A stretch of 64,000 bases of DNA from an uncultured Selenomonadaceae bacterium (GTDB taxonomy: Bacteria; Bacillota; Negativicutes; Selenomonadales; Selenomonadaceae): contig CACYXR010000001.1 in NCBI GenBank assembly GCA_902778455.1, positions 1 to 64,000 on the forward strand, read 5' to 3'. A program made the position numbers and the translations under genes. The notes under the pieces were generated by a model, which saw only the letters and a list, made by a program, of their open reading frames with translations, was not told where the DNA came from and did no database searches. Below, in pieces: positions 36,101-48,636 of the stretch. The first letter of the stretch is position 1; the number at the start of each line of letters is the position of its first letter.

Positions 36101-36411
36101 CCGCACACCTCCAGCAAAAATTTGTATTTTTCAATTTTTCCCAAGTGTATATTCGCCCTTCATCCTTGATTCCCTTTTTTCCCCGCAAAAATGCTGTGTA
36201 AGTCCCAGAAGATTTTATCGTTGCATTCCTGACCCATCCGCATTATAATAAAAGCAAGTACGAATTGTCTGACAAGAGGCGGTGGTCTTTTGCCGGCAAA
36301 GGAAGGGGGCGGCGTTTCCGATTCGCGGAAGCCGTGCATGACTTGCGGCTTTCCGAAAGTGTGGGGAGCGCGTTTCCCTCAAAAAATTATATTTAATAAG
36401 GAGTGGAATGT
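36101..36411 (+). other. Divergent intergenic region with a 160-base leader
   Basis: There is no gene here. It holds the rightward promoter (36221-36249) and an untranslated leader of about 155 bases with two G+C-rich hairpins (GGCGTTTCCG pairing with CGGAAGCC around 36312-36336, and a smaller one after it). I could not match the leader to a known riboswitch. Confidence 0.5.
36221..36249 (+). promoter_or_regulatory. Promoter of the substrate-binding lipoprotein
   Basis: TTGCAT (36221-36226), a 17-base spacer and a perfect TATAAT (36244-36249), located 163 bases upstream of the ATG at 36412. Confidence 0.7.
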
Positions 36412-37467
36412 ATGAAGAAAAAGGCACTCGCGTTACTGATGGTCCTTTGCATGGCCTTGACGACAGCTCTTGTCGCGGGTTGCGGCGGCGGACCGAAACC
36501 CCAATCCTCCGGCTCGGGCTCGGGCTCCGGTTCCGGCGCAGCGGGCGCAAAGAACAAACTCGTAATTTATACCTCAATGAAGGAAGCACTGATCAGCGGC
36601 ATCGTCGAGGGATTCAAGAAGAAGAACCCCGGCATCGAGGTCGACTACCAGTCCGCGGGCGCGGGCAAGCTGATGGCGAAGATCGCCGCCGAGAAGCAGA
36701 GCGGCCATATCCTCGCCGACGTCATCTGGACCAGCGAAGTTCCCGACTTCTATCAGATGAAATCCCAGAACATGCTGGAAAACTATAAGACCCCGATTTT
36801 CAACGAACTGCTGAACCCGTTTGACGATTATGACGGAAGCTTCACGGCAGCTCGTCTCGGCACCCTCGGTATCGTCTACAACACCGACAAGATCAAAGAA
36901 GCCCCGACCCAGTGGTCCGACCTGCTGAAGCCGGAATACAACAAGGGCTTCGGCATCGCCGACCCGGCTCTCTCCGGCACGTCCTACATGAGCGTCGCTC
37001 TCCTGGAGAAGCAGTTCGGCTGGGATTTCTTCAACAAGCTGCATGACAACGGCACGCGCATCGGCAAAGGCTCCGGCCAGGTCGTTGACGACACCTCCTC
37101 CGGCGAGCTCGTCGCCTGCCTCGGCGTCGACTACATCACCAACAGCAAGATCGCGAAAGGCGCGCATCTGAAGATGGCGTATCCGCCCGAACTGCTGATG
37201 GTCCCGAGCCCGGTCGCAATCTTCAAGGGCGCGAACAACGTCGAAGCCGCGAAGAAATTCGTCGATTATCTGTTGAGCCAGGAAGCCCAGCAGAAAGTCG
37301 CCGAAGCCGGCACCGTCCCCGTCCGCAAGGACGTCAAGATTCCCGAGAAGTACAACCTCCCCGCTCCTGAGGTCGCCCTCAAGAACGGCATCAAGGTGAG
37401 CTACACCGAAATCCTCCCGAAGAAGGAAGAGACGATCAAGAAGTTCACGGAGATCATCAAGAAGTAA
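36412..37467 (+). CDS. Fe(III)-type ABC transporter substrate-binding lipoprotein
   Basis: A 351-aa lipoprotein (LVAGC lipobox, Cys24, then a Ser/Gly linker) of the bacterial extracellular solute-binding family 1/6, close in pattern to FbpA/FutA iron-binding proteins: KLVIYTSMKEALISGIVEGF, YQSAGAGKLMAKI, DVIWTSEVPDFY, LGIVYNTDKI and GTVPVRKDVK. The start is ATG 36412 with AAGGAG. A terminator follows, so it is a single-gene unit. Its likely membrane partners are encoded 7 kb downstream (44792-48636), which lacks a binding protein. Ligands other than iron, such as phosphonates, cannot be excluded. Confidence 0.85.
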   Translation: MKKKALALLMVLCMALTTALVAGCGGGPKPQSSGSGSGSGSGAAGAKNKLVIYTSMKEALISGIVEGFKKKNPGIEVDYQSAGAGKLMAKIAAEKQSGHILADVIWTSEVPDFYQMKSQNMLENYKTPIFNELLNPFDDYDGSFTAARLGTLGIVYNTDKIKEAPTQWSDLLKPEYNKGFGIADPALSGTSYMSVALLEKQFGWDFFNKLHDNGTRIGKGSGQVVDDTSSGELVACLGVDYITNSKIAKGAHLKMAYPPELLMVPSPVAIFKGANNVEAAKKFVDYLLSQEAQQKVAEAGTVPVRKDVKIPEKYNLPAPEVALKNGIKVSYTEILPKKEETIKKFTEIIKK

Positions 37468-37479
37468 GAACAGCAAAGG

Positions 37480-37514
37480 AAGCGGCGGAACACGAAAGTG
37501 TTCCGCCGCTTTTG
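37480..37514 (+). terminator. Terminator after the substrate-binding lipoprotein
   Basis: AAGCGGCGGAACAC (37480-37493), loop GAAA, and GTGTTCCGCCGCTT (37498-37511), followed by TT: a 14-bp perfect stem. Confidence 0.85.
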
Positions 37515-37655
37515 CCGTATGGAACGGGAAGCACAAAAACAACAGCCGCCGTCTAAGGAACGTCTCCCGGAAGCAAATTTCTATGGATTTTACCTAAAAT
37601 TTTTTCTATAATAATGGAAGGTATTCTTACATTATTATAACGAATCAGTCATATT
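37515..37655 (+). other. A+T-rich gap before the partner-switch genes
   Basis: This part of the 410-base gap between 37467 and 37878 has no gene. TATAAT-like boxes occur in CTATAATAATGG and TTATTATAACG near 37605-37640, without a good -35, so a promoter for the phosphatase gene may lie here. The rest of the gap is the repeat at 37656-37855. Confidence 0.35.
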
Positions 37656-37855
37656 ACTCCGGCCATTAAATTTCGCTCACACAACTCCCTTGCCTTCCCC
37701 TTGAGGGGAAGGTGGCGCCCGCAGGGCGACGGATTAGGTGTCTTAGAGGTTTCGCTGACGCTTGGCATTGCGTCTTTCCACCTCATCCGTCAGCTTCGCT
37801 GACACCTTCCCCTCGAAGGGGAAGGCAAGATTTCGTGATTTTTAATGGCCAAAGT
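37656..37855. repeat. Composite repeat, full copy f
   Basis: A 200-bp element with outer ends ACTCCGGCCATTAAA and TTTTTAATGGCCAAAGT and, inside them, CTTGCCTTCCCCTTGAGG ... CCTCGAAGGGGAAGGCAAG. The interior holds GCAGGGCGACGGATTAGGTG and CCACCTCATCCGTCAGCTTC. It ends 22 bases before the phosphatase start codon. Confidence 0.9.
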
Positions 37856-37877
37856 CATAAAAACGGAGTGGGATTTT

Positions 37878-40049
37878 TTGAAACTGAACATCAAGCGCCG
37901 TGTTTTGCTGTGGAGCCTGTTTGCCTCTCTCCTGACCTTTCTTTTGGCGGGCGCGATTTACTTTTACTCCATGTCAGGCACGAAGGACGCGTTTGCCAGA
38001 CAGTGGGCGGCCTTGGGGGACAACGTCGCGGAATCCGTGGGGGAGATTTCCGGGCAGGACACAAAGGAACGCTTGCTGGAATCGGCTGTCCTCAAAGCGC
38101 ACCATATCGACCGCGAGCTTTCCCTCATCGGCGAGGATGCGGAATATATAGCGGATCGGATGTCCATGCTTTTGACCTCGCCCGAACCGTATCCCCCGCG
38201 AACGCTCCAAAGCACCCGAGACAGCGCAAGCATACCGTCAGGAACGCCTTATATCCATTTCAGCCCATCCCTTGCAAGCGCGCCCATCGGGAGCGATCTG
38301 GCGGAAGAAATCGGGACCGCCGGCAATGTTGCCGACACACTGATCCTGATGAGCCAGTCCTACCAGGGCTACCGTTCCTGTTTTTTCGCCGCCTCGCGCA
38401 AAGGCTTTGCGTTTTACCTCGACATCACGGAGGACGGGAAAGGAAACGTACTCCCCGACGGAGCGGCCCGCGAAGATATACTCTCCGACTTCGACCCCCG
38501 GGAGCAGCCGTGGTATGAAATCGGGCGAAACGCGAGCGGCGCGACATATACGGCGCCTGATCCCGGCATCGACGGCCGCCTGAACATCAACTGCGTAGTC
38601 CCGTTTTATGACGCGGACGGATTCGCCGGCGTCGCGGGCATCGTCATCCCCGTGGAGGACGTATATCGCCAGATTGCCGAAACGGTCACCGGCACGTCCG
38701 ACATCGTTTTTGCCGTTGACAATCGCGGCGATGTGGTGTTTTCCTCCCTGGAGTCCGGCGGCCTGGCGGCGGCGCCGGCAGACGTCGATATCCGGGAGTC
38801 GGGGGAAGAATCGCTTGCGGCGGCGACGCAGCGCATGACCGCGGGCGAAAGCGGCGTCGTTCCCGTCACCGTGGACGGGGAAGCGTATTATTTGGCATTC
38901 GCCCCCATGCCCGCCATCGGCTGGAGCTTCGGCACGCTGGTCAAAACGGACACGGTCATGGCGCCCGCCATCGAAGCGCGAAGAAACGTCATTGCCGCTA
39001 CGAACGGATTCCGCGACACGCTGGAAGGCATCCTCTCCAACGCCTCACGGAATGCTTTTTTTGCCTTCGTGATGGCGGCGCTGCTTCTCATGATTGCAAG
39101 TGAACCGCTGGCAAGCCACATCACGAACCCCATCCGAAAGCTGTCCGACGGCGTGCGGAAAATTGCGGGCGGCAATCTCGAATACAAGCTGGACGTGCAG
39201 ACAGGCGACGAGATCGAGCTCCTCGCCGACAGCTTCAACCATATGACGGAAGAACTTTCGGCGTATATGAAAAACCTGGAGCGCTCCACCGCCGAAAAGG
39301 AACGCATCCGGACGGAACTCGACCTTGCGCGGAACATACAGGACGGCATGCTGCCGAAAGACTTCCCGCAGCAAAGGGAATTTGATCTCATTGCGACGAT
39401 GCGCCCCGCGAAAGAAGTCGGCGGCGACTTTTACGATTTCTATTTCCTCGATGAAACGCATCTTGCGGTGACGGTGGCCGACGTGTCCGACAAGGGGATT
39501 CCCGCGGCGCTCTTCATGGTCATCGCGAAAACCCTGCTGAAGGACAGCACGGTCGGGGCGAAAAATCCCGAAAAGCTGTCAGAGGCCGTGGCGCAGGCCA
39601 ATGAAGCCCTCATCAGCAACAATCAGGAAGGGATGTTCGTCACCGCCTTTTGCGGCGTCCTCGATTTGAAAACCGGAAAATTCCTGTACGCAAACGCAGG
39701 CCACAACCCGCCCCTCATTCGCCGCGGTGCGGCATTTTCCTGTTTCGAGAAGAGCGAAAGCCTGATGCTCGGCGTCATGCCGGGAGAAACGTTCCCGGCA
39801 AAAACGTTCGCGCTCTCCCCCGGCGACGCGCTTTTCCTCTATACCGACGGCGTCACCGAAGCGCTGGACAAGCACCGCGAAATGTTCAGGGAAAAGAGAC
39901 TAAAAGCGACGCTTGACAGCACGCCGGAAGGGACGGACGCCGCCGGGCTGATTGCCGCGGTCCAAACGGCCCTTGAAAGCCACACCGAAGGCGCCGAACA
40001 GTCGGACGACATCACGATGCTCGCTCTCGTATATCACGGAAGCGGTTGA
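37878..40049 (+). CDS. Sensor phosphatase: Cache-HAMP-SpoIIE (RsbU-like)
   Basis: A 723-aa membrane protein that should dephosphorylate a STAS-domain partner on receipt of an external signal. TM1 is at about 10-30, a dCache sensor domain at about 40-335, TM2 at about 365-385, HAMP at about 390-440 (HITNPIRKLSDGVRKIAGG), and a PP2C/SpoIIE domain at about 480-720 with VGGDFYDF (about 515-522), VADVSDKGIPAALF, DGVTEAL and SDDITMLAL, the metal-binding aspartates. I chose TTG 37878 because ACGGAGTGG lies just upstream and the protein then starts MKLNIKRRVLL; an ATG at 37845 lies inside the repeat. The next gene encodes the STAS protein. Confidence 0.92.
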   Translation: MKLNIKRRVLLWSLFASLLTFLLAGAIYFYSMSGTKDAFARQWAALGDNVAESVGEISGQDTKERLLESAVLKAHHIDRELSLIGEDAEYIADRMSMLLTSPEPYPPRTLQSTRDSASIPSGTPYIHFSPSLASAPIGSDLAEEIGTAGNVADTLILMSQSYQGYRSCFFAASRKGFAFYLDITEDGKGNVLPDGAAREDILSDFDPREQPWYEIGRNASGATYTAPDPGIDGRLNINCVVPFYDADGFAGVAGIVIPVEDVYRQIAETVTGTSDIVFAVDNRGDVVFSSLESGGLAAAPADVDIRESGEESLAAATQRMTAGESGVVPVTVDGEAYYLAFAPMPAIGWSFGTLVKTDTVMAPAIEARRNVIAATNGFRDTLEGILSNASRNAFFAFVMAALLLMIASEPLASHITNPIRKLSDGVRKIAGGNLEYKLDVQTGDEIELLADSFNHMTEELSAYMKNLERSTAEKERIRTELDLARNIQDGMLPKDFPQQREFDLIATMRPAKEVGGDFYDFYFLDETHLAVTVADVSDKGIPAALFMVIAKTLLKDSTVGAKNPEKLSEAVAQANEALISNNQEGMFVTAFCGVLDLKTGKFLYANAGHNPPLIRRGAAFSCFEKSESLMLGVMPGETFPAKTFALSPGDALFLYTDGVTEALDKHREMFREKRLKATLDSTPEGTDAAGLIAAVQTALESHTEGAEQSDDITMLALVYHGSG

Positions 40050-40099
40050 GAGATTTGCACGATATTATTTTTACAGCAACAACAAACGGAGGTATATGC

Positions 40100-41704
40100 A
40101 TGGACATCAGCATCACGAAAAAAATCGACGGGGAGACGCTTACGCTGTGCCTTGCGGGGCGGCTTGACAAGCTCACGGGGCCGACCTTCGACGCGGAATT
40201 TCGCGCCTCCAGCCCCGGATTCCAAGAGACCGTGCTGGATATTTCCGAGCTTGGGTATCTTTCCTCGGCAGGACTCCGTTCCCTGATCATGGCAAACAAC
40301 CAAATGAAAAAGCAGGGCGGCGTCCTGACGGTCAAAAATCCGACGCCCGATGTGATGGACGTATTCGAGATGACGAATTTCGGGCGGCTGATCCGGATCG
40401 TGAAGGACGAGGAAGGCGCGCCGGAGGTCGAGAAGCCTCTGCAATATTACCCCCTGCGTCCGATCCAGCGCTGGCTCGTCGATACCCATTTCCAAAAGGC
40501 AAACTCAACGATGATGAACATCGGTGCTTTGGTGCGGCTTGATGCGTCTGTCGATATGGAGCGCATGGCCGACGCGCTGAACGACATCCTGTCTTCCTAT
40601 GACATATTCCGCTGCCGGCTGCTGTTCCACCCCGAAACGGGGGAAGTCTGCCAGCGTTTCGACGGGGAAGTGGAACGGGTCTTTGTGGAAACACTTTCAG
40701 ACGAAGCTTTTGAAAAGCGCAAGCGCGACCTCAAGGAACCCTATTCGATCATTGACCGCCCGCTCTATCGGGTGCACCTGATGAAGACCCCGTCGGGACA
40801 ATATATTTACGCGGACTTTTACCATGCCACCGTGGACGGCACGGCAGTCGCGCTGATTTTTTGGCGGGAACTCGACAAACGCTATGTGCGGGGCGCGGAG
40901 AACGCCGTCGCACGAAAAACGCCGAGCTACGCCGAATATGTCCTCGCCGAGTCGAAGATTTCCCCGGAAGAGTTGGCGGAAGGGCACGCCTACTGGAGAA
41001 AAACGCTCGAAGACTTTGACGAGAAAAAGCACCTGCCGCCCGCCGACGTCGAAAACGCCGGGGCGTGGAAGAAAAACGAGTTCGAGACGCCGCTGAAAAC
41101 CGTCATTGCCAAAGACTTTTTCCGGGGCAAGGATTTTACGGAAAATACATTTTTCATGGCGGCGGCGATGCTCGCGATGGCGAAATCGTCAGGCGTCCGC
41201 GAATCCGTCATGAGCTGGGTGCACAACGGGCGCATGAACGCCTCGGAACGCCGCTTGATGGGACTCATGCTGAACCAGATTCCCATCCGCTGGGACTTCG
41301 GGGACGGGCTGACCGCCGGTGCATTCCTGCGCGGCCTGGAAGCGCGGATCGCGGAAGGGATGAAATACGTCAAGAGTTTGGACGTAGTGTATAACGAAGG
41401 TCTCGAAGACCTGTGCGCCACCTTTATCCTCCAAAAGGGCGTCACGGGACGTCGCGGCGGCGCGCGCCTCGGAGGCGCGGAGGCCGTGTACGAGGAAATG
41501 CCGGAAAACGAATGGTCGGCGGCGGAAAATACGCTGGACGTCGAACTGAACGCCCATACCGACGGGACGTATTCACTGGTGTTGAATTACGACGCCAGCC
41601 GCTACTCCGCGGACGCCATGCGCCGCTTCTCCCAAACGGTGGACGAGATGATCGGGGCGCTCACGGATGCGGAACGGGACGTGACGGAACTTTTGAAAGC
41701 GTGA
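40100..41704 (+). CDS. STAS anti-anti-sigma domain fused to a condensation domain
   Basis: A 534-aa cytoplasmic fusion. Residues 1-105 are a STAS domain (RsbV/SpoIIAA-like): DISELGYLSSAGLRSL places Ser56 at the regulatory phosphorylation site. Residues from about 112 to 530 are an NRPS-type condensation/acyltransferase domain: YYPLRPIQRWLVDT, DIFRCRLLF, the catalytic FYHATVDGTA (His242, Asp246), SWVHNGRMNASERRLMGLML and NQIPIRW. There is no carrier or adenylation domain here or nearby. ATG 40100 has CGGAGG 8 bases upstream. It lies between the SpoIIE-type phosphatase and the MATE-ATPase fusion. The enzyme may make an ester or amide product whose formation is switched by phosphorylation (inference). 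Confidence 0.9.
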   Translation: MDISITKKIDGETLTLCLAGRLDKLTGPTFDAEFRASSPGFQETVLDISELGYLSSAGLRSLIMANNQMKKQGGVLTVKNPTPDVMDVFEMTNFGRLIRIVKDEEGAPEVEKPLQYYPLRPIQRWLVDTHFQKANSTMMNIGALVRLDASVDMERMADALNDILSSYDIFRCRLLFHPETGEVCQRFDGEVERVFVETLSDEAFEKRKRDLKEPYSIIDRPLYRVHLMKTPSGQYIYADFYHATVDGTAVALIFWRELDKRYVRGAENAVARKTPSYAEYVLAESKISPEELAEGHAYWRKTLEDFDEKKHLPPADVENAGAWKKNEFETPLKTVIAKDFFRGKDFTENTFFMAAAMLAMAKSSGVRESVMSWVHNGRMNASERRLMGLMLNQIPIRWDFGDGLTAGAFLRGLEARIAEGMKYVKSLDVVYNEGLEDLCATFILQKGVTGRRGGARLGGAEAVYEEMPENEWSAAENTLDVELNAHTDGTYSLVLNYDASRYSADAMRRFSQTVDEMIGALTDAERDVTELLKA

Positions 41705-41784
41705 GGAAGGCCTATGCATAAAAAAACTTGCCGCCCGATTTCTATTTCCGGCCATCTGCAGGCAGCTTTCGGAGCAGCGGTGTA

Positions 41785-43560
41785 ATGGAAAAGGATTCGT
41801 CGCTTTCGGCGTATTTTACCCGAAAAATGTTCCTGCGGGCCGTATTGCCCTCGCCCATCGCGGGCGTCGGGCTGGCGCTGGCGGAGATGGGCGATACCAT
41901 TCTGATCGGCCACGCCATCGGCATGGACGGGATTGCCGCCATTGCGTATATCTCCCCGCTGTTCCTGCTGGCGACCTTTTTCGTCTTTGGCCTCTCCACG
42001 GGCGGCGCGGTGGTTTTCTCGACGCTGATGCACGAAGGGGAAAAAGACCGGGCGCTGGCAATCTTCAACTTTTTCCTGCGCCTCTCCTGCGCCGTCGGCT
42101 TTGGCATCATGGCGGCAGGGCTTCTCATGGGGGACAGCCTGCTTTCTGTCCTCGGCGCGACGCCGGAAGAAGGCGCCGTGTTCGCTATGGCGAAAAGCTA
42201 TGTCTTCTATATCCTCCTGGGGATTCCCTTCCAGATCCTGCTGGGCGTGGTGACGGCCTATCTCCGGAACGACAACGCCACCGCGTTCTCCGTCGCGCTT
42301 CAGACGGCGGCGGGCGTCGGCAACCTCATCCTCAGCGCGATCCTGTTGCTCTTTTTCGATTGGGGCGTCGCGGGATGCAGCTTCGGCTTCTTCGCCTCGA
42401 ACGCGGCGGCGTTCCTCGTCGGCTTCCTCTATCTCTTCTCGGGGCACGGGGAACTCAGAGTCCGGCGGGAAACCGCCTCCTTCGCCGATGCGGTGAAGCC
42501 CCTGCGGCTCGGCTTCGCGACTTCCTTTGAATATATCTTCGGCGCGATCTTCGCCCTCGTTTCCCTCCACCTGCTGACGAATCTTGCGGGCACGGAGGGT
42601 GCGGCGATCTTCAACATCGTCGAAAACCTGTCCCAGCTTTTCATCTTTATGTACGAACTCATCGGAAAGACGGCGCAGCCCATTTTTTCCGCGTTTTTCT
42701 CGGAATGCATTTTTCGCGAGCTGCACCGTATGTTCCGGTACTGCCTCGCCTATTCTCTGGCGGTAGGCGCCGTCGCCACCGTCGCCGCGATTATCTATCC
42801 GGAAATCGTGGACCTGCTCTTCGGACTGGAGGACATAAGGGACGCGGCGGCGGCCTATCACGCGGTGCGGGTCTTTTGCGTCGGAGCGATTTTCATGGGC
42901 GTATGCCTCCTGCTGCAAAATTACTTCCAATCCGAGGAGGATGAGCAGGGCGCGTTTCTCGTCGTCTTCTTGCGGCGAATGGGCTTAGGCATTGTTTTGG
43001 CATGGGTGCTGTCCCGTTTCGGCCTCGACGCCTTTTGGCTGGTGTACCCGCTCTCCGAGCTTCTGACGCTGCTCGCCGTTGTCGTTTACCATCGCCGCCG
43101 GGGCGAACGGAAGAACATCGATCCGGCGAGGGTCTACGCCTCCGCTTTTTACGGCAGCGTCAAAACCGTGGCGGAACAGCTCGACGCCATCGACGCTTTC
43201 GCGGCGCACTGGGGCGCCGACGAGCACAAGCGGTTTTTGCTCCGCATGGCATTGGATGAAATCTCGGGCGTCATCAACGAACGCGCCGCCCGCCGCGCCA
43301 ATACGCACGTCTTGCTGCAGCTTACGCTGATTGCCAAAGAACAGGCCGAAACGCAAAGCCCCGAATTCGAGATTCACCTTCGGGACGACGCGAAAGAATT
43401 CGACCCCTTCCTGCTCCCCGTCGGGCCGATTTCCGCCGTGCCGGAACAAGCGGAAGATCTGGACGTGGAGGCGCTCGGCATGTACTTCGTACAAAGCCGC
43501 GTCCGGAGCTTCTACTTCCGAAATTATCAGGGCTTCAATACGACCATGATAGTCATATAA
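41785..43560 (+). CDS. MATE exporter fused to an RsbW-like ATPase domain
   Basis: A 591-aa protein. Residues 1 to about 440 are a MATE/NorM transporter with twelve predicted helices (LPSPIAGVGLALAEMGDTIL, QILLGVVTAYLRND). From about 444 to the end is a GHKL/HATPase domain of the serine-kinase (RsbW) type, set in the cytoplasm: ALDEISGVINERA (Glu492), LRDDAKEFDPF (D534-P541) and EALGMYFV (563-570) stand for the N, G1 and G2 boxes, ending FNTTMIVI. The N-box Asn and the G1 glycine differ from the consensus, so ATP use may be weakened. ATG 41785 follows GGAG by 10 bases. It is the third gene of the block, 80 bases after the STAS fusion. Confidence 0.88.
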   Translation: MEKDSSLSAYFTRKMFLRAVLPSPIAGVGLALAEMGDTILIGHAIGMDGIAAIAYISPLFLLATFFVFGLSTGGAVVFSTLMHEGEKDRALAIFNFFLRLSCAVGFGIMAAGLLMGDSLLSVLGATPEEGAVFAMAKSYVFYILLGIPFQILLGVVTAYLRNDNATAFSVALQTAAGVGNLILSAILLLFFDWGVAGCSFGFFASNAAAFLVGFLYLFSGHGELRVRRETASFADAVKPLRLGFATSFEYIFGAIFALVSLHLLTNLAGTEGAAIFNIVENLSQLFIFMYELIGKTAQPIFSAFFSECIFRELHRMFRYCLAYSLAVGAVATVAAIIYPEIVDLLFGLEDIRDAAAAYHAVRVFCVGAIFMGVCLLLQNYFQSEEDEQGAFLVVFLRRMGLGIVLAWVLSRFGLDAFWLVYPLSELLTLLAVVVYHRRRGERKNIDPARVYASAFYGSVKTVAEQLDAIDAFAAHWGADEHKRFLLRMALDEISGVINERAARRANTHVLLQLTLIAKEQAETQSPEFEIHLRDDAKEFDPFLLPVGPISAVPEQAEDLDVEALGMYFVQSRVRSFYFRNYQGFNTTMIVI

Positions 43561-43569
43561 ACAAACATA

Positions 43570-43598
43570 TAGATTTTGCGATAAAACTGTCCTATAAT
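43570..43598 (+). promoter_or_regulatory. Possible promoter of the YgiT-type gene
   Basis: A perfect TATAAT (43593-43598) lies 17 bases after TAGATT (43570-43575). The weak -35 limits confidence. Confidence 0.5.
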
Positions 43599-43646
43599 GG
43601 AGAGGATAAATATAACTTGAAAATGCCAAAAGGACGGCGACGCAAT

Positions 43647-43877
43647 ATGAACTGCCTGCTCTGCAAGTCCGGTACCATGCGCGAGACTACCGGCACATAT
43701 TTTGCACAGCTTCCTAATTGCTATGTCATTATCGAAAACGTTCCCTGCCGGAAATGCGAGCAGTGCGGGGAAATCGTCTATGCCTCGTCGGTGATGGAAA
43801 AAATCGATGCAATGCTCGAACGATTTGAGAAAATCGCATGCAGAGTCTTCATCATGGATTACTCGACAGCGGCGTAA
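43647..43877 (+). CDS. YgiT-type zinc-finger protein
   Basis: A 76-aa protein with two CxxC pairs (MNCLLCKSG and CRKCEQCGE) typical of the N-terminal zinc domain of MqsA/YgiT antitoxins. There is no helix-turn-helix C-terminal domain, so it should not bind DNA by that route. I chose ATG 43647 because the first CxxC then starts at residue 3, as in the family; TTG 43617 and ATG 43623 are alternatives. The usual adjacent toxin (MqsR or a DUF4258 protein) is absent. Confidence 0.7.
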   Translation: MNCLLCKSGTMRETTGTYFAQLPNCYVIIENVPCRKCEQCGEIVYASSVMEKIDAMLERFEKIACRVFIMDYSTAA

Positions 43878-43917
43878 AGCAAGATTTTTATTGTAATATT
43901 TGCAGCCAAATATTTTT

Positions 43918-44066
43918 TAGGGAACACTGATTAAGTCAATTCGTGCATCTGTCGAGGGATTTTTTCAACTGTCTAGGAAAAGCCCTCGAAGGCGTAGCAT
44001 CGCTACGTCGAGAGGGATTTGACAACGACAGTCGGAAAAAGACCCGGCAGAGGCGCGGAGGGACTT
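43918..44066 (+). repeat. Truncated TTAAGGAA repeat
   Basis: About 149 bases match the 54387-54554 element, in the same direction, from GGAACACTGATTAAGTC through AGCATCGCTACG to GGCGCGGAGGGACTT; the last 20 or so bases, with the second terminal repeat, are missing. The toxin gene begins 10 bases later. Confidence 0.85.
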
Positions 44067-44075
44067 GGCGCAAGA

Positions 44076-44525
44076 GTGAGAATTTATCTGGATTCGTGCT
44101 GCTATAACCGTCCTTACGATGACCAGTTCCAACCACGAGTAGCGTCTGAAACACAAGCGATATTGTATATTCAGAACCAAATCATGACCGGCCGTATCGA
44201 GTTGGCGACGTCCTATGTTTTGCGCTATGAAATCAGTAAAAGTCCTTTCCCCACTCGGATGCTGCATACGCAAAATTTTATTCGGCACCATTCTCACGTC
44301 TATGTTGGTACAAATAGCTCAGATATGGTAGAATCATATGCGAAAGAAATCATGAAAACCGGCGTAAAATTATATGACGCATATCATGTGGCTTGTGCAA
44401 TCGTTGCTCAATGCGATTATTTTCTTTCAACAGATGACAGATTGCTCAAATATCGTTCCAGTAAAATCCTTTTACTTAATCCGATTGCATGGATTGACAT
44501 CAGCGAGGAGGGGAATAAACTATGA
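44076..44525 (+). CDS. PIN-domain toxin
   Basis: A 149-aa predicted ribonuclease of the VapC/PIN type. The first acidic residue is in RIYLDSCCYN (Asp6), with more in SYVLRYEISKS and DAYHVACAIVAQCDYFLSTDD. GTG 44076 is chosen: it starts the conserved fold immediately, and reading upstream enters the repeat. The ribosome site is weak (CAAGAG). It overlaps the next small gene by 4 bases (ATGA), so the two are coupled. Confidence 0.8.
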   Translation: MRIYLDSCCYNRPYDDQFQPRVASETQAILYIQNQIMTGRIELATSYVLRYEISKSPFPTRMLHTQNFIRHHSHVYVGTNSSDMVESYAKEIMKTGVKLYDAYHVACAIVAQCDYFLSTDDRLLKYRSSKILLLNPIAWIDISEEGNKL

Positions 44526-44749
44526 CCGCTGAAACTGCCGCTTTAATGGAACGGGGCATGGACTGCCTTACAAACGGACTGGGAACCATCGACGCCGCAA
44601 AATTCATTGCGGCCGTTAAAGGTGACCAATTCGATTATGCAGAATGGCGAAGGAGTTGCTTTGGCAATATGACGGCAAAAAAGTTTCACGAAGAGGCCAT
44701 TGCTTATGAAAACGCCAACCCGTTTGACGGAAAAGCGATTCAGCTATGA
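44522..44749 (+). CDS. Small protein paired with the PIN toxin
   Basis: A 75-aa protein that overlaps the PIN gene by ATGA. It begins MTAETAALMERGMDCLTNGL and shows GTIDAAKFIAAVKGDQFDYAEWRR, a pattern I associate with putative antitoxins beside PIN genes. No DNA-binding motif is evident. The antitoxin role rests on gene order; here the toxin comes first, the reverse of most vapBC loci. Confidence 0.7.
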   Translation: MTAETAALMERGMDCLTNGLGTIDAAKFIAAVKGDQFDYAEWRRSCFGNMTAKKFHEEAIAYENANPFDGKAIQL

Positions 44750-44791
44750 CGTTGTGTACAATATTTGATTTAATAAAGGAGTGATGCTATT

Positions 44792-45883
44792 TTGGACATT
44801 ATCCGTGTGGAGAACGTGTCGAAAGGGTATCCGAATCATCCGGTGCTTCAGAACCTTTCTCTCACGCTGAAAAAGGGCGAGTGCTTCACCCTGCTCGGTC
44901 CTTCCGGCTGCGGGAAGACCGTGCTTTTGCGGCTGCTCGCCGGATTCGAGTCCGCCGACGCGGGGAAGATCTACATCGGCGATACGCTGGTGAACGATCC
45001 CGAGGCGCGGATTGCCGTGCCGCCGGAAAACCGCGGGCTCGGCGTCGTGTTCCAGGATTACGCCGTCTGGCCGCACATGACCGTCTTCGAGAACGTGGCG
45101 TATCCGTTGAAGATCGCCGACCGTCCGAAAGACGAGATCAACGAGCGCGTCATGCGCATGATCGACATCGTCGGCATGAAGGGCCTTGACAAGCGCCTGC
45201 CATCGGAGCTTTCCGGCGGCCAGCAGCAGCGCGTCGCATTGGCCCGCGCCCTCGTCGCCGATCCGGCCCTGCTTCTCCTCGACGAGCCGCTGTCAAACCT
45301 TGACGCGAACCTGCGCGAGGAAATGCGCTTCGAAATCAAAGAGCTGCAGCGGCAGCTCGGCGTCACGGTACTTTACGTCACCCACGACCAGGAAATCGGC
45401 CTCGCCATTTCCGACCGCGTGGCCATCATGAACGCCGAAGGCGCGATCCAGCAGATCGGCACGCCCTGGGAAATCTTCGAGCAGCCGGTCAACCCGTTCG
45501 TGTTCAACTTCATGGGCATCGCGAACTTCATCGACGTGCGCAAAGAGAACGGCGCGTTCCTCGTCGGAAAAGGCAGCCAGCCGATTCCCTGGGAAACGCC
45601 CACGGGCGACGCTGCGGACTGGGTCGCGGCCTTCCGTCCGTCGGACGTCAGGATCGCCCGCGGCGGCGACGGACTCCACGGCGTGATCCGCCGCGCGAAC
45701 TTCCTCGGCGCCATGATGGACTACCTGATCGAGATCGACGGCACGCATCTTCGGACGAGCATCGAAACCCATCATGCCATCGCGCAGGATTTGATGTTCA
45801 AGGCCGGAGACGAATGCTCGCTGTCGTTTTTAAGCCTGCACTGGTTCGAAAAGGAATCGCTGAAGGGGGTGCTTGAGGAATGA
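44792..45883 (+). CDS. ABC transporter ATPase 1 (Fe(III)-type)
   Basis: A 363-aa ATPase. Walker A GPSGCGKT at about 36-43, Q-loop FQDYAVWPHM, signature LSGGQQQRVALARAL, Walker B LLLLDEP and the switch His (VTHDQ) are all intact. A C-terminal TOBE-like region follows, as in FbpC/PotA-type proteins. It starts with TTG 44792 (AAAGGAG, 10 bases). It overlaps the permease start by ATGA, so it is translationally coupled. Confidence 0.9.
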   Translation: MDIIRVENVSKGYPNHPVLQNLSLTLKKGECFTLLGPSGCGKTVLLRLLAGFESADAGKIYIGDTLVNDPEARIAVPPENRGLGVVFQDYAVWPHMTVFENVAYPLKIADRPKDEINERVMRMIDIVGMKGLDKRLPSELSGGQQQRVALARALVADPALLLLDEPLSNLDANLREEMRFEIKELQRQLGVTVLYVTHDQEIGLAISDRVAIMNAEGAIQQIGTPWEIFEQPVNPFVFNFMGIANFIDVRKENGAFLVGKGSQPIPWETPTGDAADWVAAFRPSDVRIARGGDGLHGVIRRANFLGAMMDYLIEIDGTHLRTSIETHHAIAQDLMFKAGDECSLSFLSLHWFEKESLKGVLEE

Positions 45884-47562
45884 ACACGAAAAGCTCATTC
45901 GGCGTGGCGCAGGTCATCCTGTTCCTGTCCATCGCCATCCTCGTCATCGTCGTGGCCTTCCCGGTGCTCCTGATCCTATTCAACGCGTTCTGGGTCGAGG
46001 ACCATTTCAATTTCTCCGGCGCGATTGACATCCTGAAGGAGCCGGAGACCTTCAAGGCGTTGATGAACTCGCTGATCATCGCCGGTATGTCCACCATCGG
46101 CTCTACCATCGTCGGCACCTTCTTCGCGTGGCTCGTCACGCGGACCGATATGCCGCACAAGCGGTTCATGAAGAGCATGTTCCTCGTGCCGTTCATGCTG
46201 CCGTCCTTCATCGGCGCCATGGCCTGGAAGATGCTGCTCTCGCCGAACGCCGGCTTCATCAACCGTTTCTTCATGGACCATCTCGGCTTTGGCGGCCCGA
46301 TTTTCAATCTTTACAGCTATTATGGCATTTCCGCCGTCGAAGTCATGTACCTGTTCCCCTTCGTGTTCATCCAGGTCTGCGGCGCTTTGGAGCGCATGGA
46401 CCCGACGCTGGAGGAATCGGCGCGCATCTCGGGCGCGGGGCTCTTCACCATCACGCGGAAAATCACGATCCCGCTGGTGCTGCCTTCGATCCTTTCCGGC
46501 GCGCTCCTGATCATGCTCTACTCGATGGCCCACTTCGGCACCGTCGCCGTGCTCGGCATCGAGAACGGCATCTACAACATCCCGGTGCTGATTTACGAGC
46601 GCATCCACCAGTCGGGCGGCTCCTTCGAGTCGATCCGCACCGGTACCGTGCTCGCCACCGTGCTGGTCATCAGCGCGGCCTGCATCATCTGGGCCCAGCG
46701 CAAGATCCTCGGCTCCGGCCACTACCAGATCATCGGCGGCAAGAGCTTCCGCCCGATGGAGCTGAAGCTCCGCGGACTCAAATACCCGCTGATGTTCTTC
46801 TGCTTCGCCTATATCGCGTTCACCATCGTATTGCCCACCATCGTGATCTTCCTCGTCGGCGGCCTCAGTACCTACGGCCTGTCCTTCACGCCGGAAAACC
46901 TGTCGCTGGACAACTTCAAGTTCATCCTGTTTGAATACGACGTAACAAGAGACGCGATCTTCAACAGCGTCACGCTGGGCCTGACCGCCGCGATCATCAC
47001 CATGTTCGCCGGCGTCATGATCTCCTACGTCATCGTCAAGATGGACGTCAAGGGCAAAGGCATCCTCGAATTCCTCGGCATGCTGCCGTTCTCCGTTCCG
47101 GGCTCGGTCATCGCCCTCGGCGTTATCCTCGCATGGAGCGGCCAGTTCGGAATCAACCTCTACAACACCGTCTGGATTATCCTCGTGGCCTACATCGCCC
47201 GCTATATGGCCTTCTCGCTGAAAGCCAACAGCGCGGCCCTCGAGCAGGTCCACGACTCGCTGGTCGAGGCCTCCCGCGCTTGCGGCGCCACCATGTGGCA
47301 GTCGCTGAAAGACATCGTGCTGCCGCTGGTCAAGCCGGGCATGTTCGCGGCCTTCTTCCTGATCTTCCTGCCGTCGCTTCGAGAGCTGACCGTTTCGATC
47401 ATGCTCTACGCGCCGACCACGCGCACCATCGGCGTCGCCATCTACACGCTGAACGAGGACGGCGAGACCGTCATCTCCTGCGCGCTGGCCGCCATCGCCC
47501 TGATCATCATCATCGTCGGGCAGACGGTCATCAACCATTTCACGAAAAAGGAGAGTGAGTGA
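45880..47562 (+). CDS. ABC transporter double permease
   Basis: A 560-aa membrane protein with two BPD_transp_1 permease halves (about 12 helices), as in FbpB/SfuB iron permeases. The EAA loops that contact the ATPase are EESARISGAGLFTITRKITI (about 190) and VEASRACGATMWQSLKDIVL (about 465). No binding protein is encoded in this operon; the best candidate is the lipoprotein at 36412-37467. Two ATPase genes flank it. Confidence 0.92.
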   Translation: MNTKSSFGVAQVILFLSIAILVIVVAFPVLLILFNAFWVEDHFNFSGAIDILKEPETFKALMNSLIIAGMSTIGSTIVGTFFAWLVTRTDMPHKRFMKSMFLVPFMLPSFIGAMAWKMLLSPNAGFINRFFMDHLGFGGPIFNLYSYYGISAVEVMYLFPFVFIQVCGALERMDPTLEESARISGAGLFTITRKITIPLVLPSILSGALLIMLYSMAHFGTVAVLGIENGIYNIPVLIYERIHQSGGSFESIRTGTVLATVLVISAACIIWAQRKILGSGHYQIIGGKSFRPMELKLRGLKYPLMFFCFAYIAFTIVLPTIVIFLVGGLSTYGLSFTPENLSLDNFKFILFEYDVTRDAIFNSVTLGLTAAIITMFAGVMISYVIVKMDVKGKGILEFLGMLPFSVPGSVIALGVILAWSGQFGINLYNTVWIILVAYIARYMAFSLKANSAALEQVHDSLVEASRACGATMWQSLKDIVLPLVKPGMFAAFFLIFLPSLRELTVSIMLYAPTTRTIGVAIYTLNEDGETVISCALAAIALIIIIVGQTVINHFTKKESE

Positions 47563-47565
47563 CCG

Positions 47566-48636
47566 ATGGCAGGCTTTGTACGTCTGATCGGCGTGACGAA
47601 ACGGTTTGGCGACGTCACCGCCGTCAACAATCTGAACTACGAAATCGGCAAGGGCGAATGCTTCTCGATGCTCGGTCCTTCCGGCTGCGGCAAGACCACG
47701 ACGCTCCGCATGGTGGCGGGCTTTGAGGATTTGTCCGACGGAGAGGTCTGGGTCGGCGACCAGCTCTTTTCCTCGCCGAAGAAAAACCATTATACGCCGC
47801 CGGAAAAGCGGAACTTCGGCATGGTGTTCCAGGCCTTCGCCGTCTGGCCCCACCTTTCCGTCTATGAAAACGTGGCGTTCCCGCTGCGCATCCGCAAGCT
47901 CTCCGAAAGCGAGATCGACCAGCGCACCATGGACGCGCTGAAAGCGACGAACCTCGTCTCTGCGAAAGACCAAAGTCCGGACTATCTGTCCGGCGGCGGC
48001 AAGCAGCGCGTGGCCCTCGCCCGGGCGCTGGCCATCAATCCGGACGTAATGCTGCTCGACGAACCGCTTTCCTCCCTCGATCCGCACCTCCGCGAGGAAA
48101 TGCGCTTCGAGATCAAGGATTTGCAAATGAAATACGGCTTCTCGATCATCTACGTCACCCACGACCAATCCGAGGCCATGGCGCTGTCCGACCGGATTCT
48201 CGTCATGAAGCTCGGCGTCGTCCAACAGATCGACACGCCGCTGAACATCTACAACAACCCGGCGAACAAGTTCGTGTTCAGCTTTATCGGCCTCTCGAAC
48301 TTCCTGACGGTGAACCGGGACGGCGGCAGCGCCCAGCTTCCGGGCGGCGTTCCGCTTCCGGCGGGCGTCACGGTACCCGAACATCTCGCGGGCGAAAGCG
48401 TCGTCTCCTGGGCCAGCCGCCCCTCCGAGATCGACTTCCTTCCCGCCGACGACCCGACCGGTCTCCACGGCGTCGTAAACCGCAAGGCGTTCCTCGGCGA
48501 AATCATCGACTACCAGATCCAGGTCGGCGAGCAGACGCTCCGTGTGCAGAAAGGCCGCCGCGATCCCGGCCCAGAACCGGGCGAGACCTGCGCGCTGCAC
48601 TTCCTGCGCCCGTTCTGGTACAGGGAAAACGAATAA
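47566..48636 (+). CDS. ABC transporter ATPase 2
   Basis: A 356-aa ATPase related to the product of 44792-45883. Walker A GPSGCGKT, Q-loop FQAFAVWPHL and Walker B LLDEPLSSLD are standard, but the signature reads YLSGGGKQRVALARAL where LSGGQQQR is usual. A TOBE-like tail follows. It begins three bases after the permease. The two ATPases may form a heterodimer on the single double permease (inference). Confidence 0.88.
   Translation: MAGFVRLIGVTKRFGDVTAVNNLNYEIGKGECFSMLGPSGCGKTTTLRMVAGFEDLSDGEVWVGDQLFSSPKKNHYTPPEKRNFGMVFQAFAVWPHLSVYENVAFPLRIRKLSESEIDQRTMDALKATNLVSAKDQSPDYLSGGGKQRVALARALAINPDVMLLDEPLSSLDPHLREEMRFEIKDLQMKYGFSIIYVTHDQSEAMALSDRILVMKLGVVQQIDTPLNIYNNPANKFVFSFIGLSNFLTVNRDGGSAQLPGGVPLPAGVTVPEHLAGESVVSWASRPSEIDFLPADDPTGLHGVVNRKAFLGEIIDYQIQVGEQTLRVQKGRRDPGPEPGETCALHFLRPFWYRENE

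Follow-up and report, generated by a model that had tools for sequence, protein, structure and literature searches.

What does a partner switch control where no sigma factor accompanies it? The question is raised by a locus in a stretch of 64,000 nucleotides (hereafter the window) from an uncultured Selenomonadaceae bacterium (contig CACYXR010000001.1, positions 1 to 64,000), in which three adjacent rightward genes at 37845-43560 encode a SpoIIE-type phosphatase, a STAS domain fused to a condensation domain of the non-ribosomal peptide synthetase (NRPS) type (STAS-C), and a MATE transporter fused to an RsbW-like domain (MATE-H). Sigma factors are the textbook targets of partner switches, and to our knowledge few enzyme outputs are known for them. 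The presence of this trio of domain architectures in a Schwartzia-like genome is confirmed, and scanning the seven genes at 36403-48633 revealed no sigma-factor domain; on both points the result agrees with a previous sequence-only reading of this DNA, which had assigned the three genes the phosphatase, STAS and RsbW-like roles of a sigma-free switch. The answer that we favour, and to which we would give an even chance, is that the switch gates biosynthesis and export after translation, via docking of STAS-C on a pseudokinase domain of the exporter. The features of the locus are as follows:

37845..40049, + strand: dCache-HAMP-SpoIIE (PP2C) membrane sensor phosphatase, RsbU/SiaA-like, 734 amino acids (aa); from Pfam, motifs and synteny.
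40100..40411, + strand: STAS domain (RsbV-like), STAS-C residues 1-104, with predicted phospho-acceptor Ser56; from Pfam, TIGR00377, conservation and a structure model.
40436..41701, + strand: NRPS-type condensation domain of STAS-C, with a YHxxxDG active site (His242, Asp246, Gly247); from Pfam, conservation and fold.
41785..43095, + strand: MATE-family transporter domain; from Pfam MatE (66.9 bits in two stretches, above the cut-off) and NCBIfam MATE models.
43108..43557, + strand: C-terminal RsbW/SpoIIAB-fold domain, predicted pseudokinase; from a HATPase_c_2 match below the cut-off, a structure model, Foldseek and motifs.

The three genes are separated by only 50 and 80 bases on the same strand, which makes the arrangement operon-like. 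The phosphatase gene, previously placed at 37878, in fact starts 33 bases earlier, at 37845; its product scores above the Pfam cut-off for dCache_1 (56.8 bits), HAMP (57.0 bits) and SpoIIE (161.3 bits; cut-off 25), and its translation shows the canonical PP2C motifs GGDFYDF, VADVSDKGIPAAL, LYTDGVTEA and SDDITML. The STAS-C gene has its best start at ATG 40100, behind GGAGG, and ends at 41704, so that both halves of the fusion, each supported by Pfam, lie in one protein of 534 aa, as the sequence-only reading had it. The STAS domain matches STAS_2 (45.5 bits), STAS (37.1 bits) and the anti-sigma antagonist model TIGR00377 (49.3 bits; cut-off 53.45), and its structure model has a pLDDT of 80. 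With numbering from ATG 40100, its predicted phosphorylatable residue is Ser56, the latter of the two serines in YLSSAGLR. It precedes the Gly of the STAS loop by two positions and does not vary among 17 homologues with identities down to about 50%. The condensation domain scores 129.7 bits (cut-off 30.6), and its model resembles NRPS condensation (C) domains, with SgcC5 among the fold matches. Its active site reads YHATVDG, with Tyr in place of the first His of HHxxxDG, and His242, Asp246 and Gly247 are invariant in the same number of homologues (n = 17). The MATE gene occupies 41785-43560 within a reading frame open from 41728.

The domain that follows the MATE region is assigned to the RsbW/SpoIIAB fold because its structure model supports this, and not on account of its sequence, which gave 21.9 bits against HATPase_c_2 (cut-off 27.4) and no match in a profile search against solved structures. 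With the AlphaFold model (pLDDT 62.5), the first 21 Foldseek rows were RsbW, SpoIIAB, UsfX and Rv1364c (E 8.3e-5), and the VIA Z values were 12.6 for RsbW (112 residues) and 11.1 for SiaB, as compared with at most 9.3 outside the partner-switch kinases. The domain is thus predicted to have an RsbW-type fold, while the intact kinase motifs that an RsbW-like ATPase would carry are missing, as detailed below.

Far from being rarely neighbours in related genomes, which would have counted against a functional unit, the three genes recur together. A scan of 84,980 species genomes with two peptide patterns returned 72 loci, at which genes were called by a simple script on contigs that, for metagenome-assembled genomes (MAGs), include frameshifts and edges; the window's own genome was examined through searches and sequence stretches. 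The SpoIIE gene lies upstream in 20 of the 22 loci that have STAS-C together with a MATE of the window type, and the order SpoIIE, STAS-C, (NRPS), MATE-H is kept across two families, Selenomonadaceae and Acidaminococcaceae. By record title, nearly all the named hosts are bacteria of the rumen or herbivore gut, among them Schwartzia succinivorans (STAS-C 89% identical), Selenomonas ruminantium, Succiniclasticum ruminis, Anaerovibrio and Quinella. Lachnospiraceae are more distant hosts, and one Synergistota MAG contig (L080) may reflect a binning error. Within a family sample of 189 genomes, a MATE-H orthologue (at least 50% identity) was present in 19, and all 16 family genomes with an NRPS-clade STAS-C fell within these 19; in the remaining three, the contig is cut within the upstream NRPS or C gene or right next to it. 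The orthologue therefore adjoins STAS-C wherever the contig allows. The idea of a broad phylum-wide family was rejected, as STAS-C occurred in 5 of 398 sampled phylum genomes, all from its own family, in a sample that did not capture those members of the Lachnospiraceae and Acidaminococcaceae that the larger scan brought up.

All three genes are under purifying selection. The condensation domain is strongly constrained relative to S. succinivorans (nonsynonymous divergence, dN, 0.048; synonymous divergence, dS, 0.63), the constraint is seen on the STAS domain too, and the fused domain (dN 0.079, dS 0.58) must, on this ground, still matter. Taken with the synteny in sister taxa, this selection makes it unlikely that the trio is a product of chance.

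According to the scheme that we favour, the dCache domain of the phosphatase would sense an extracellular ligand, and the phosphatase would dephosphorylate Ser56 of STAS-C, which would in turn be phosphorylated by a separate RsbW-type kinase (encoded elsewhere in the window's genome, and beside the locus in Succiniclasticum). The unphosphorylated STAS domain would then bind the pseudokinase domain on the MATE exporter, and dephosphorylation would dock the condensation enzyme there, probably opening transport, so that synthesis and/or release of the product at the membrane would require the signal, with no change in gene expression. We infer the phosphotransfer, the contact between STAS and pseudokinase, its sign (activation, not inhibition), the ligand and the product. 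The sequence-only reading had likewise proposed that a signal controls both making and export: its sigma-free wiring of an acyl-transfer enzyme to an exporter is sustained by the synteny, the invariant Ser56 and the Succiniclasticum RsbW, but its use of the fused HATPase as the kinase is not.

Four observations weigh against the scheme. (i) Lachnospiraceae pair STAS-C with a MATE devoid of the fused domain; (ii) Quinella-type loci pair MATE-H, its fused domain further eroded, with a C protein that lacks STAS; (iii) the locus in the window's genome encodes no adenylation (A) or peptidyl carrier protein (PCP) partner for the C domain; and (iv) the confidence of the fused-domain model is modest (pLDDT 62.5). 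From the first two it follows that the pairing of STAS-C with MATE-H is not obligate. At L123:7955-15284 and similar Quinella-type loci, the STAS-less C protein and MATE-H stand beside PotABCD-like genes, whose best matches to the PotABCD spermidine/putrescine ABC transporter fall below the curated cut-offs. At L034, L087 and other loci, DUF6056 membrane proteins, possibly glycosyltransferases, flank the C and MATE-H genes, and L034 also has a family 2 glycosyltransferase.

The third of these observations concerns a gene that the sequence-only reading, with its set of three, had overlooked. Between STAS-C and MATE, 17 of the 22 loci with STAS-C and this MATE type carry an A-PCP-C NRPS gene, usually encoding about 1210 aa with an AMP-binding domain, a carrier protein and a second condensation domain. 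No homologue was found in the window's genome or in S. succinivorans, both 100% complete, and the possibility that the partner is encoded elsewhere in the window's genome was rejected, since the search gave only distant AMP-ligases. The window's form most likely arose by loss of the NRPS gene, as judged from three lines of evidence: the condensation-domain tree joins the NRPS-less Schwartzia clade (support 100) to a relative that has the NRPS, one Schwartzia MAG retains the NRPS gene, followed about 6 kb downstream by a second MATE-H, and the NRPS-less locus L074 sits in a different NRPS-bearing clade. Alignment of the relatives' A domains to linear gramicidin synthetase A gave no confident substrate call. 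Elsewhere in the window's genome (L149:2722-11653; G000:C22), a cluster encodes a DegT-like aminotransferase, small carrier proteins, a ketosynthase III-like protein, short-chain dehydrogenases/reductases and two AMP-ligases, and is a possible acyl donor pathway.

Alternatively, the Schwartzia locus could be a decayed NRPS locus in which the C domain has taken on a new task: with a donor supplied by a different pathway, it would acylate a surface molecule or a free amine, and regulation or export would have drifted. The absence of the NRPS from two complete genomes and its presence in near relatives are consistent with such a history, as are the carrier-protein/AMP-ligase cluster just described and the polyamine-type ABC genes that adjoin the Quinella-type C proteins. 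Nevertheless, the purifying selection on all three genes means that the system is more than a dead remnant, and a repurposed enzyme is in any case compatible with, rather than opposed to, a sigma-free switch acting on enzyme and exporter; as an explanation in its own right, we regard it as rather unlikely.

We also weighed the classical assignment of roles, in which the MATE-fused HATPase would be the active Ser56 kinase, as the sequence-only reading had supposed, and phosphorylation would free STAS-C from the exporter. For this purpose, the fused domains were aligned with 15 stand-alone RsbW proteins encoded at the same loci or in the same genomes. All 15 stand-alone proteins have the N-box Asn, as against none of the 25 window-type fusions, 2 of the 10 MATE-H from loci with GNAT acetyltransferases and 1 of the 19 of a second type. 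Similarly, the two leading glycines of the G2 box, kept in 15/15 stand-alone proteins, persist in only 2/25 and 6/25 of the window-type fusions. The window's own domain has lost the G2 GG, its G1 box reads RDDAKEFDP, with Ala replacing the glycine, and six sequences have a deletion at the N-box. No kinase with all of the N, G1 and G2 boxes intact is therefore encoded in the trio. With the N-box Asn missing from all window-type homologues and the G2 glycines mostly lost, we predict that the fused domain is a pseudokinase, more likely serving for docking, and the candidate role of a normal RsbW kinase was rejected as the main reading. Several features do speak for an active kinase, namely the RsbW-type fold of the model, the N-box Glu in 24 of 25 window-type domains, a G1 box of DNG or DDG in many relatives, and the EELCVN motif, N-box Asn included, in MATE-H of L155 and L156, which suggests that ancestors of the fusion may have been active. 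Set against the motif losses, and against other loci that couple MATE-H with a separate intact RsbW, they leave this assignment unlikely.

As the fused domain is without kinase motifs, the Ser56 kinase is predicted to be a separate protein, probably a stand-alone RsbW. Intact candidates exist. At L076, L077, L078 and L081 (Acidaminococcaceae-type), the genes directly after the set encode a STAS and an RsbW, each stand-alone, and a further dCache-SpoIIE; the Succiniclasticum locus shows this addition, with the RsbW intact. In the window's genome, a stand-alone RsbW (60.8 bits) is encoded on another contig, at L151:7220-7642, with a STAS gene adjacent and a SpoIIE gene about 2 kb away. Overall, 17 of the 19 genomes with MATE-H have an intact RsbW, and the two without it are 81-82% complete.

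A further alternative dispenses with phosphorylation altogether and takes the STAS domain as a module on which either the membrane exporter or a carrier protein docks. Binding of an acyl carrier protein by a STAS domain has a precedent in E. coli YchM, and the Lachnospiraceae STAS-C, which pairs with a MATE lacking the RsbW-like domain, fits this proposal. Against it stand Ser56, which all 17 homologues share at identities as low as about 50%, and the SpoIIE gene upstream in 20 of 22 loci, and we hold this alternative to be quite unlikely.

The sigma-free switch acting on enzyme and exporter finds its strongest support, as regards the MATE fusion being a switch output, in the recurrence of RsbW-derived domains on transporters. 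Other loci of the family (L158, L160, L161 and others) combine a distant MATE-H with a GNAT acetyltransferase, SpoIIE, an intact RsbW and STAS, with no condensation domain. A MATE-HATPase gene adjoins SpoIIE at L155, L156, L157, L158, L159, L160, L161, L164, L171 and L172, and most of these ten loci also have a GNAT-like acetyltransferase and a stand-alone RsbW or STAS. SDF dicarboxylate-type symporters, found in many of the family's genomes, bear a degenerate RsbW-like domain at the N terminus (H-SDF), in which Arg replaces the N-box Asn in 17 of 21; STAS, RsbW or SpoIIE lay within the same 10-13 kb for 12/21 H-SDF as compared with 2/10 plain SDF controls, counts that were made by hand on a small sample of non-independent loci. 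One such case is in the window's genome (L152:2100-9397; G000:C19), where SpoIIE, STAS, a periplasmic binding protein, a GGDEF protein and H-SDF follow one another. RsbW-derived domains on transporters thus look like a lineage-wide habit. We tentatively suggest, with somewhat less confidence than for the locus itself, a design of the Selenomonadaceae in which transporters from unrelated families, MATE exporters and SDF symporters, carry RsbW-derived pseudokinases as receivers of a STAS phospho-switch; here the STAS domain would lie within an enzyme, and an external signal would join or part enzyme and exporter. The reverse wiring, in which STAS-C would compete for a general RsbW and signal the state of biosynthesis to other outputs, MATE-H having no part in STAS-C binding, draws on the other SpoIIE, STAS and RsbW genes of the genome, which could cross-talk, but is very improbable given that the fusions to enzyme and exporter and the repeated RsbW-like/transporter fusions point to the fused proteins as outputs.

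Two further sets of genes in the window's genome were noticed during this survey. At L150:5440-8705 (G000:C18), the gene of an ATP-grasp ligase that resembles dapdiamide synthase and anticapsin ligase overlaps that of a second MATE, whose C-terminal extension can be aligned with the RsbW-like domains and has no Pfam HATPase match, so that an amide-forming enzyme again stands beside a MATE exporter with an RsbW-like extension. At L152:10046-12967 (G000:C19), a 485-aa protein with a CxxxCxxC-like motif is encoded next to three small proteins that resemble one another (138-149 aa, with a VAGG leader-like motif), and the group looks like a precursor set for a ribosomally synthesized and post-translationally modified peptide.

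Upstream of the SpoIIE gene lies an ABC-type binding protein (36412-37467), and downstream of the MATE gene a small YgiT-type zinc-finger protein is followed by an ABC transporter set. Directly 5' of the SpoIIE gene, at 37690-37830, a repeat with inverted GGGGAAGG / CCTTCCCC arms was seen by eye. No Rfam element was found at the locus and no sigma-70 promoter-like site on the coding strand; a plasmid origin was rejected, with no plasmid match at E 1e-20.

The output of this switch appears to be a biosynthetic enzyme together with its exporter, the wiring being provided by domain fusions, and other transporters of the same bacteria follow the same idea. If this is true, partner switching would here serve metabolite production and transport instead of transcription, a small molecule would be made and secreted under post-translational, signal-gated control, and the fused domains would offer a clear case of kinases turned into docking receptors. 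The hosts (Selenomonas, Succiniclasticum, Schwartzia, Quinella) are dominant rumen bacteria whose secreted metabolites are little known. In a literature search with incomplete coverage of subscription journals, we found no description of the three-gene set, of a STAS-condensation fusion, or of RsbW-like pseudokinases on MATE or SDF transporters.

Among known systems, RsbU-RsbV-RsbW and SpoIIE-SpoIIAA-SpoIIAB use the same three domain families, the window's fused domain being predicted to have an RsbW/SpoIIAB-like fold; they differ in that the locus has no sigma factor and that its RsbW-like domain is without kinase motifs. VibH is a stand-alone condensation enzyme of an NRPS and, like SgcC5, is comparable to STAS-C in its free-standing C domain with an H..DG site, and in the window's relatives an A-PCP-C protein is adjacent; STAS-C differs in its N-terminal STAS switch domain, the Tyr at the first His position and the absence of an NRPS from the genome. 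In the STAS-bearing SLC26/SulP transporters, a STAS domain regulates the transporter (PMC11214054, PMC6656431), of which it forms part, whereas here the transporter carries the RsbW-like half and the STAS domain is on the enzyme. SiaABCD of Pseudomonas aeruginosa is a sigma-free partner switch with an enzyme output (PMC7647112, PMC8457831), and resembles the present locus in combining a SpoIIE-type membrane phosphatase, a GHKL kinase and a STAS-like protein, with an enzyme rather than a sigma factor as output. SiaA is the best NCBIfam match of the window's SpoIIE protein, albeit at 77 bits against an equivalog cut-off of 700, which places the locus outside SiaABCD proper, and the fold matches of the fused domain include SiaB. 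In contrast to SiaABCD, where SiaC, a separate protein, binds the diguanylate cyclase that forms the output, the window's STAS domain is fused to the condensation domain and its RsbW-like domain to the transporter.

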